Shown in pieces: positions 16,616 to 18,703 of a stretch of 22,099 nucleotides of DNA. The stretch spans positions 1 to 22,099 of IMG/VR virus record IMGVR_UViG_3300031840_000371. The stretch is one strand, 5' to 3'. The notes below the pieces were generated by a model that worked only from the letters and a program-made list of their open reading frames with translations, was not told where the DNA came from and made no database searches. Every line of letters begins with the position of its first letter. The first letter of the stretch is position 1. The stretch comes from a virus. The translations under genes were made by a program, and so were the position numbers.

Positions 16616-16966
16616 TTACTTGTTTTTTCTTTCTTGCCTTTTTTTGGCTCTGTAAGCTTTCATAGCTTCTTTTCTGTCTTTACCTTTCTTCCAAGACCCT
16701 GCAGCAAACTTCTCTGCTTTTTTGCGTCTTTTAAATTCGTAAAGCTCTCCTGCTTTTTTAGCCTCATTGAAGCTTTGAGGTCTAGCCTTTTCATTACCTT
16801 TAAATGTTATCGCTGGAGCTGCATAGTGAACAATCTTATTTCTGTCCCCATTTCTCTGAGGCTCGTCAGGATAAAACTCTACTTTAACGGTAGCATCTCT
16901 TCCTGACTTATTTCTTTTTAAGTTTTGTATATGCTTCTTTCGTTTTTTCTTAATAGGTGTAGGCAT
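16616..16966 (-). CDS. Basic protein with GSWKKGKDRKEAMKAYR tail, virion-type
   Basis: The 116-residue Lys-rich product starts with a strongly basic segment (TPIKKKRKKHIQNLKRN). The middle patch (VKVEFYPDEPQRNGDRNKIVHYAAPAITF) looks folded. The C-terminal AGSWKKGKDRKEAMKAYRAKKRQERKNK looks helical and nucleic-acid binding. I recall similar GSW..G..R.EAM..Y runs in small phage proteins of unknown function. It meets the rightward TM gene tail to tail with no gap. The 17-bp region before its start is AT-rich with a poor -7 match. Function not known. Confidence 0.75.
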   Translation of the reverse strand: MPTPIKKKRKKHIQNLKRNKSGRDATVKVEFYPDEPQRNGDRNKIVHYAAPAITFKGNEKARPQSFNEAKKAGELYEFKRRKKAEKFAAGSWKKGKDRKEAMKAYRAKKRQERKNK

Positions 16967-17376
16967 AATTATATTTTATTGCAATTTATAAAATTTCTAT
17001 GAGATATAAAAAGGGTGGGGGTTATATATATAGTACGCACGCACGTTCCATAATCCGAAACCGAATCTCTCGAAGGGGGTGGTCAAACATTATGCACGCA
17101 TACCAAAACTAAATGTCGTTTTTGCTCCCACGCAGATACCTAATTTCTGCCCTTGTAATGACACGCATACCAAAAGGGTGGCTTTACTATACATACACGC
17201 CGAAATGCTCTTAAATCGTCTCTAACGTAGTGAGAACAAGAGATGAGAGGTATAACTACCCAACCATTCCCCCCAATCCATACACATATAGATTAACTTC
17301 AAAAAAAACTTTCGCTCTGTATCCCCCGTAAACATTGAGAAAGTGAAAATACTTTGAAAATAAAGTGTAAAATAAC
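16967..17376. other. Gene-free control region with C/G tracts and direct repeats
   Basis: About 410 bp holds no credible coding frame on either strand. It contains a G tract (AAGGGTGGGGG near 17011-17021), a GGGGG run near 17076-17080, C tracts (CCCCCC near 17270, CCCCC near 17323), an alternating AT run (near 17024-17031), several CACGC boxes and the 14-bp repeat described separately. TCTCT (17219-17223) can pair with AGAGA (17239-17243). Two AAAGTG.AAAAT boxes precede the strong promoter and could be operator sites. This is where a replication origin or genome terminus could sit, but nothing proves it. Confidence 0.5.
17095..17175 (+). repeat. 14-bp direct repeat pair (CACGCATACCAAAA)
   Basis: Exact copies lie at 17095-17108 and 17162-17175, 67 bp apart from start to start. 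The C/G-rich core CACGC recurs in shorter form nearby (for example around 17034-17044 and 17196-17201). The arrangement fits protein-binding sites in an origin or regulatory region. Confidence 0.8.
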
Positions 17377-17408
17377 TTGACACGTATTAAAATTAGTTCG
17401 TATATTTG
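17377..17408 (+). promoter_or_regulatory. Strong Bacteroidetes-type promoter for the non-coding leader and early genes
   Basis: TTG at 17377-17379, a 21-bp spacer and TATATTTG at 17401-17408 give a complete consensus match. Transcription would begin about 17412-17416. That is the foot of a 7-bp hairpin (AACAATG at 17413-17419 with CATTGTT at 17428-17434). No gene starts for the next 540 bp, so this promoter appears to serve the structured region first. A repeated AAAGTG box and a small ACTTT/AAAGT inverted repeat (17351-17366) lie upstream. Confidence 0.8.
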
Positions 17409-17412
17409 TCCC

Positions 17413-17927
17413 AACAATGAATCAAAGCATTGTTCGTTCTTTCACATACTGATTCAGACATAGCGTTCAGCATAGGCGTTGGCACTCCATACGGATAGCG
17501 TAAGACCAACACACAAGCCTTAGAATAGCATCTGACTATCGAGTTCCTTAGGGATGTTGAGATAGCATATTAGTAAGTAGAACATAGTTCATTGACATAG
17601 TGTAGTAAGCATTCGCAAAGTTCAGCAGTCGGCTGAGACAATAGGATGACAAATGGCGTTAACATATGGTATGCAAAACATCGCACATATTCAGTCAGAT
17701 GTCGGAGATTCCGTCTCACTTGGTCACATGATAAGACCATTAATCGATAGGACGTTTACAAGCTACACATTGATAGAGTAAAAATTGATTCGATGGGATA
17801 TTGCAAGGGCTTATGTTGTTATTACGCTCGCAGTAAGCTAAGGTTAGGTAGTCGCTAACACCTTGCAAAATCCTTTAATGCTACCGATGGTCGTTGCAAG
17901 TCGACATAAAAGCAGAGCAGAGGGAAC
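17413..17927 (+). ncRNA. Putative large structured non-coding RNA (about 515 nt)
   Basis: There is no open frame, and GC is higher than the neighbours (31 of 60 bases at 17461-17520). Helices seen by eye: 17413-17419/17428-17434 (7 bp at the predicted 5' end); AGGCGTTGG 17474-17482 with CCAAC 17506-17510 and GCCT 17517-17520; CTATC/GATAG 17536-17540/17561-17565; TCAGC/GCTGA 17622-17626/17632-17636; TGGTC/GACCA 17721-17725/17735-17739; TTTAC/GTAAA 17755-17759/17778-17782. A 3' junction is closed by GGAT-A-TTGCAAGG 17796-17808 with CCTTGCAA-A-ATCC 17861-17873. It encloses GCTTA/TAAGC and GTTAG/CTAAC hairpins. GTTCTTTC 17436-17443 can pair with GAGGGAAC 17920-17927 (two G-U pairs), which would close the whole domain. 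The size and ornateness recall phage RNAs such as GOLLD and ROOL, but I cannot identify it. It could also be a long early-operon leader, since no terminator follows. Confidence 0.6.
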
Positions 17928-17957
17928 TATCAATCAAAACAACTAAAACCTACTATT

Positions 17958-18188
17958 ATGACATTAGGATTCGGAAAGTACAAAGGGCAACAATTTGAAA
18001 AAACACCTAAATCTTATCAAGATTGGTTATTCAAACAAGATTGGTTTAAATTGTCTAAGCAAGATAAACCTATCAACAATTATTACTGCCATCATTGTGA
18101 TACTCCTCACAATAATCAATACTCAAGCTACTGTTGTAGTGGGTGTGAACGTGCAGAGGAAAGTTTTAACCATTTTGATAACAACTAA
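17958..18188 (+). CDS. Small protein with FGKYKG motif and zinc ribbon
   Basis: The 76-residue product combines an N-terminal block LGFGKYKGQQFEKTPKSYQDWLFKQDWF (residues 3-30) with a C-terminal four-cysteine knuckle (Cys44-x2-Cys47 and Cys60-x2-Cys63). The first block matches the FGKYKG....P..Y..W pattern of the DUF3820-like module, often found beside or inside phage and bacterial nucleases. The zinc knuckle suggests nucleic-acid or protein binding. It is the first gene after the structured RNA. A frame one base off (17995-18222) is its shadow. The function is not known. Confidence 0.78.
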   Translation: MTLGFGKYKGQQFEKTPKSYQDWLFKQDWFKLSKQDKPINNYYCHHCDTPHNNQYSSYCCSGCERAEESFNHFDNN

Positions 18189-18189
18189 C

Positions 18190-18207
18190 GGAGGCGGAAG
18201 CCCCTCC
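18190..18207 (+). other. GC-rich hairpin directly after the stop codon
   Basis: GGAGG (18190-18194) pairs with CCTCC (18203-18207) around an 8-base loop. It begins one base after the stop codon. No U-run follows, so it is not a typical intrinsic terminator. It may stabilise or separate early messages. Confidence 0.45.
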
Positions 18208-18226
18208 TTAACTAAACCTTAGACAG

Positions 18227-18403
18227 ATGACAAAATTAACCTACAAGTTCGCTATTACAATTTTGATATTATTGAATATCATTATTTTACTTTTATTTGC
18301 TGCAACAAGTAACGAGGCTGCTTTGTATATGCTACCTTTTGGTGTTTTCACCTTGTATCTAGTTTTAAAAGATGCAATTCAGTACGATAAAAAAAACAAC
18401 TAA
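18227..18403 (+). CDS. Small two-TM membrane protein
   Basis: The 58-residue product begins at an ATG preceded by the recurring leader ACTAAACCTTAGACAG. It has two hydrophobic stretches, FAITILILLNIIILLLFAAT (about 8-27) and ALYMLPFGVFTLYLVL (about 32-47), and a polar end (KDAIQYDKKNN). It is an early-module gene and might modify the host membrane, for example for superinfection exclusion, but that is speculation. No family is recognised. Confidence 0.65.
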   Translation: MTKLTYKFAITILILLNIIILLLFAATSNEAALYMLPFGVFTLYLVLKDAIQYDKKNN

Positions 18404-18415
18404 ACCTTAGAGATT

Positions 18416-18703
18416 ATGACTACAATCACATTAAATTGGGAGACGAAAAATGGTCAGTACAAACAAGACTTTAATGGTCTTAATACTGCCATAAAAGAGA
18501 TGAATAAAATGGCTGAAGGTTCTAATAAAACGTCTATTGTAATATTCGATAGAAATAGTAATTGGGATTTAGTGATACGCTATAATGAGGAAGTTTATTA
18601 CATGGCTAAAGAGGGCAGTAAATGTTCATCAGGTTACTACGGAACAATAGGTCACCTTAGAAATAATATCCGATTGGGATACGAAAAAACAAAATTAAAC
18701 TAA
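18416..18703 (+). CDS. Early-module hypothetical protein, 95 residues
   Basis: This soluble alpha/beta protein begins MTTITLNWETKNGQY. The segments SIVIFDRNSNWDLVIRY and VYYMAKEGSKCSSGYYG look like strands with aromatic/charged alternation. There is no signal peptide, membrane helix or metal motif. The upstream leader is of the AACTAAACCTTAGAG type, and the next gene follows after 11 bp. I do not recognise the family. Confidence 0.7.
   Translation: MTTITLNWETKNGQYKQDFNGLNTAIKEMNKMAEGSNKTSIVIFDRNSNWDLVIRYNEEVYYMAKEGSKCSSGYYGTIGHLRNNIRLGYEKTKLN

Follow-up and report, generated by a model that had tools for sequence, protein, structure and literature searches.

A family of large structured RNAs with a predicted 3'-terminal twister ribozyme ahead of the early genes of uncultured phages, carrying a candidate antisense element

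The antitermination RNAs HK022 put and EAR are structured RNAs with which a long early or operon transcript begins. In the trans-encoded antisense RNAs of phages, a short element is complementary to an mRNA from another part of the same genome. Larger structured RNAs of phages and prophages are represented by GOLLD, in which the 3' region is conserved and the 5' region less so, and by ROOL (one example has 659 nt); both are of similar or larger size than the RNA described below and often lie near tRNA islands, neighbouring tRNA genes being frequent for GOLLD, not universal (PMC12286853). Twister ribozymes cleave at a U-A step (PMC6154101).

In the present study we analysed a virus record of 22,099 bases (the whole stretch is referred to as the window), whose terminase and portal proteins resemble those of Flavobacterium, Cellulophaga, Maribacter and Tenacibaculum phages. 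The window originates from a marine Bacteroidetes phage. The investigated region is bordered by a leftward gene (16616–16966) on one side and by the rightward early genes (from 17958), including an ArdC-type antirestriction gene, on the other. The original prediction, made from the DNA sequence of the window, was that these early genes are preceded by a new, large and structured RNA, and it held well: homologues were found, with strong covariation and without a conserved frame. The full consensus promoter it described (TTGACA-18-TATATT) shows 11 of 12 sigma-70 matches, its -7 region TATATTTG fits the TAnnTTTG pattern of Bacteroidetes, and the same promoter is kept ahead of the RNA in the relatives. 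As predicted, the 549 bases between the promoter and the start codon have no coding frame: all ORFs are of 56 aa or less (the longest being 42 aa on the + strand and 56 aa on the - strand) and none is common to the 13 family members. The GC content is raised, if modestly: it amounts to 41.4%, compared with 37.5% in the whole window and 35.7% in the early genes. The features of the locus are listed in Table 1.

Table 1. Features of the RNA locus, numbered from the first base of the window.
Feature	Position	Strand	Details and basis
Promoter	17377–17408	+	TTGACA 17377–17382; Bacteroidetes-type -7 box TATATTTG 17401–17408
Structured non-coding RNA (predicted 5' cleavage product)	17409–17876	+	Family alignment, covariation, no conserved ORF
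5' hairpin	17413–17434	+	AACAAUG (17413–17419) with CAUUGUU (17428–17434); stem swapped in relatives
5' subdomain	17446–17548	+	UCAGA 17454–17458 / UCUGA 17531–17535; inner GUUG 17478–17481 / CAAC 17507–17510
Central module, second type	17575–17784	+	Mosaic similarity; two-sequence fold only
Conserved element UUGAUUCGAUGGGAU, candidate antisense site for resolvase-like endonuclease mRNA	17785–17799	+	Based on relatives
3' hairpin module	17800–17869	+	UUGCAAGG 17801–17808 with CCUUGCAA 17861–17868
Predicted type-P1 twister ribozyme	17872–17923	+	Rfam E 7e-7, alignment, covariation including pseudoknots, model search
Twister P1	17872–17875/17920–17923	+	Rfam consensus alignment
Twister P2	17879–17882/17911–17914	+	Rfam consensus alignment
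Twister P4	17890–17893/17902–17905	+	Rfam consensus alignment
Twister T1 pseudoknot	17895–17897/17917–17919	+	Rfam consensus alignment
Twister T2 pseudoknot	17883–17884/17900–17901	+	Rfam consensus alignment
First early gene, 76 aa	17958–18188	+	ORF; 3' of ribozyme, outside RNA

Two further observations concern the surroundings of the locus. Between the divergent gene blocks (17000–17100) there is a strongly conserved block, GGGTGGGGGTTATATAT..CCGAAACCGAA, also present in the related contigs L158, L175, L186 and L193 and in G017, which lacks the RNA; it is possibly a replication or regulatory element. The early genes (18188–18416 of the window, and the early leaders of the relatives) have common short A-rich leaders, e.g. 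AACTAAACCTTAGAnnnATG, which are probably translation starts of the Bacteroidetes type.

Homologues of the RNA were identified in two close relatives found by protein searches (L002 and L003) and, using DNA patterns taken from the twister and from conserved stretches, in L158, L175, L179, L180/L185, L181, L182, L186, L188, L192 and L193. Counting the window, the family has 13 full-length members, and a single truncated copy lies at the contig end of the terminase relative L170; all of them are in uncultured viral contigs. Searches of 50,697 phage records, of GTDB genomes and of the rest of the window gave no match beyond chance or self, and the corresponding place in the close relative G017 contains neither a related RNA nor a twister. 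Since the family occurs only in uncultured phages of the searched data, it would be missed in isolate genomes. No description of this RNA was found in the openly accessible literature, and the long non-coding leader represents a real, previously undescribed family.

The 13 full members share the same order of parts: the promoter, the 5' hairpin, GTTCTTT (followed, with small variations, by ACATACTGATTCAGA in all but L160), the body, the element GATTnG(A/G)TGGG and then the ribozyme, which ends every full member except L179 and lies 30–60 bases upstream of a start codon; the first gene downstream varies between phages. The twister's place in L179 (3381–3545) is taken by a piece of approximately 150 nt that has a canonical T arm and a stem resembling an acceptor stem. 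This piece was not recognised as a tRNA or tmRNA by ARAGORN or Rfam; it may serve the same purpose via tRNA-processing enzymes.

The conserved structure was deduced with RNAalifold from 11 full members, which yielded 143 base pairs with 96.6% of the cells paired, a percentage that is biased upward because the structure was derived from the same alignment. Stronger evidence is provided by double changes: both sides are altered in 42 of the 143 pairs among the 11 relatives, compared with a mean of 19 in shuffled alignments (0/500 of which reached 42) and at most 7 in slid-partner controls. Such an excess of compensatory changes shows that the RNA is structured. Most of these pairs (35 of 42) fall outside the 5' hairpin and the twister. 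Helices 3, 4 and 13, putative long-range closures, are nearly invariant. The window sequence taken alone folds no better than its shuffles (z = -0.87; 20 of 100 fold equally well), so that the many short helices originally noted in it are no evidence by themselves; it was the comparison of homologues that bore this part of the prediction out.

The 7-bp hairpin predicted at the 5' end was strengthened by the comparison, as L181, L186 and L193 have the whole stem replaced by GAGCAGU/ACUGCUC. Five of the 16 predicted pairs of the 5' subdomain are double-changed (alignment A5, window included), and the 3' hairpin can be drawn with changed pairs in five members, among them L158, L160, L175 and L179. 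A different result was obtained for the proposed 8-bp helix closing the whole domain (17436–17443 with 17920–17927). It can be drawn, but was rejected because its bases 17920–17923 form the 3' strand of twister P1 and because it is not conserved, base 17924 being A in every other twister-bearing relative, which breaks the helix. A switch joining the GGGA that follows the conserved element to the 5' strand of twister P1 was likewise considered; it can be drawn in some members only.

The centre of the RNA is of two types. The module present in the window is common only to L002/L160, the other relatives having a different, strongly conserved centre. As the first part of the window RNA matches L003 and the later part matches L002, the RNA is a mosaic, and the alignments indicate that its central part is a swapped module. 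A two-sequence fold of the second-type RNA kept 97 pairs, 11 of them double-changed, which gives limited support since the 5' parts of both sequences align poorly.

The ribozyme was not reported in the original prediction and was found in a permissive Rfam search. Its score for twister type P1 (RF03160) is 39.5 bits (E 7e-7), below the curated value of 67.2 bits, which is a cut-off for automatic annotation and no feature of the ribozyme itself; the shortfall is apparently due to the missing consensus P3. The stems P1, P2 and P4 of the type are present, as are its two pseudoknots and its core letters (UAA at the cleavage site, CAAG, UAAA and GAG), the latter seen in the alignment to the Rfam consensus and in invariant columns of the family. 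All 17 pairs of P1, P2, P4, T1 and T2 form in 12 sequences (11 distinct), with five compensatory pairs against at most one in slid controls. The compensatory changes affect each of the stems P1, P2 and P4, and T1 also covaries (UGC/GCA to UAC/GUA, one pair double-changed); T2 (AC/GU) is invariant in the family. A model built from the members gave one match per genome with the RNA and twister, and elsewhere a single marginal place (E 0.63). A match of L089 to the 3' half of the twister was judged to be a chance one, and no twister is present there. The terminal element is filed as a twister by its architecture, with activity predicted; since twisters cut at the U-A step, cleavage is expected between U17876 and A17877. 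The ribozyme departs from type P1 in lacking the consensus P3 and would act as the 3' boundary of a large structured RNA. Compensatory changes throughout the alignment strongly support both the RNA structure and the twister, and a structured family with a twister is very probably what these contigs share.

Comparison with the known large classes placed the RNA apart from them. Rfam models of GOLLD, ROOL, OLE and other large classes gave no match at gathering or permissive thresholds, and no tRNA genes were found in the window or in the loci of nine relatives. For these reasons the RNA was not filed under GOLLD or ROOL, as the original prediction had considered, and by the sequence comparisons it is a new class. 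It resembles GOLLD as a large structured phage RNA, but is smaller, lacks a covariance-model match and neighbouring tRNA, and is followed by a twister. It resembles ROOL in being phage-borne, structured and of similar size; it differs in having no covariance-model match, no tRNA island and a 3' end predicted to be defined by a ribozyme. Matches to RAGATH-17, LhrC and CopA near the region (E 0.8–4) were treated as chance.

The arrangement suggests the following model. The early promoter would start a transcript, and its first ~465 nt would form the structured RNA with its 5'-end hairpin (the length applies if transcription begins near 17412, a start inferred from the promoter). The twister directly downstream would cut at 17876/17877 in the cell. 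This would free a presumably stable RNA whose 3' end is set by the cut and bears a 2',3'-cyclic phosphate, and what follows in the early mRNA would begin with a short 5'-OH leader. The long early leader envisaged as an alternative in the original prediction is partly right as well, since the RNA heads the early transcript, from which the twister probably cuts it off. The freed RNA would act in trans, its conserved element pairing with the mRNA of a resolvase-like endonuclease encoded at the opposite end of this rightward early/replication block; the pairing would lower or delay expression of the enzyme. To this whole model, i.e. a new large phage RNA class released by a twister and acting in trans on the endonuclease mRNA, we assign a probability of roughly 0.5.

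The candidate target emerged from the RNA of L158, in which a run of 21 bases is matched exactly at another place in the L158 genome. The conserved element is antisense to the codons V/I-P-S-N-Q-K-E of an endonuclease gene (DUF1064 above cut-off, a weak Phage_endo_I match, Holliday junction resolvase by PHROG), situated 12–14 kb downstream of the RNA on the same strand. In the annotated example, the rightward genes of an early/replication block with Erf, an exonuclease and a DnaB-like helicase end with it. The gene falls outside the window fragment, and the match is known from the relatives. In 8/8 genomes holding both, no other match between the RNA and the genome is longer than that at the endonuclease site (13–21 bases); single lengths are near the range of shuffled RNAs (11–16), and the evidence lies in the place being always identical. 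Synonymous differences in the gene are mirrored in the RNA in 8/8 genomes: genes with TCA..AAG (G050, G052, G053, G054 and G057) accompany RNAs reading GATTTG, and those with TCG..AAA (G001, G051 and G055) RNAs reading GATTCG, an agreement that separates essentially two clades and may reflect only one or two events. Two more positions agree where comparable, and duplexes matched by clade clearly exceed cross-clade ones in strength.

The site lies in the coding sequence near its 3' end, away from the ribosome-binding site, two relatives retain the gene and the site with no RNA detected, and, for most relatives, internal pairing of the RNA (helix 13) can take up part of the element. As in the trans-encoded antisense RNAs of phages, a short element is complementary to the mRNA of a distant gene, but here it forms part of a large RNA predicted to be released by a ribozyme, the site is inside the coding sequence and the pairing is a candidate one. 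An antisense role is possible, at somewhat less than even odds, the proposed function resting on about one independent co-variation event. The full proposal, in which an RNA cut from the early transcript controls the phage's own resolvase/endonuclease and its site co-evolves with synonymous sites of the gene, is put forward tentatively.

The large size of the RNA, its many conserved helices and a strongly conserved centre unrelated to the antisense element would also fit a structural or protein-binding role, as supposed for GOLLD and ROOL. The same RNA and twister would then assemble or sequester something, and the endonuclease match would be a common binding motif or an ancient coincidence, which the phylogenetically shallow agreement between gene and RNA would allow. 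Under such a role the element would not be expected to co-vary with synonymous sites in a single gene, and the wholesale replacement of the centre in the window and L002 indicates that a single fixed architecture is not required; we consider this explanation rather unlikely. Less probable still is an antitermination leader comparable to HK022 put or EAR, whose nascent RNA would modify RNA polymerase so that the long early block is read through, with the twister cutting later. The RNA does follow immediately on the early promoter and, in the annotated example, precedes a long series of co-directional genes, but it is much longer than such elements, showed no sequence match to them in the Rfam searches, and cleavage by the ribozyme that follows would free it from the nascent chain.

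Other putative ribozymes were observed in related early regions. Hammerhead-like motifs, defined in our own descriptor search as a core CUGAnGA..GAAA with three stems, are present in L175 (5227–5292), L179 (3956–4011), L186 (7804–7859), L009 (7627–7684 and 9285–9347) and L014 (6948–7023, 7406–7461 and 8718–8770). They lie between early genes, each about 15–30 bases upstream of a start codon, and their stems II and III show compensating changes between L179 and L186; an Rfam Hammerhead_1 search reported none of these candidate sites. A pistol ribozyme above the Rfam cut-off was detected in L005 (5797–5863), with a relative in L006, in the intergenic stretch preceding a small early gene and upstream of the ArdC-type gene. 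Such ribozymes directly before start codons suggest that cleaved leaders are common here, yet it is highly improbable that the twister serves only to leave the early mRNA with a clean, short 5' end, the cut-off piece being a by-product; a by-product would not retain 35 double-changed pairs in the body of the RNA.

Few large structured RNAs of phages have been described and little is understood of them; most twister ribozymes, too, lack an assigned biological role. With a twister-released RNA acting on the endonuclease mRNA as the preferred reading, the family described here offers twisters a plain job, the releasing of a structured RNA, and gives a large structured phage RNA a concrete, testable candidate target.
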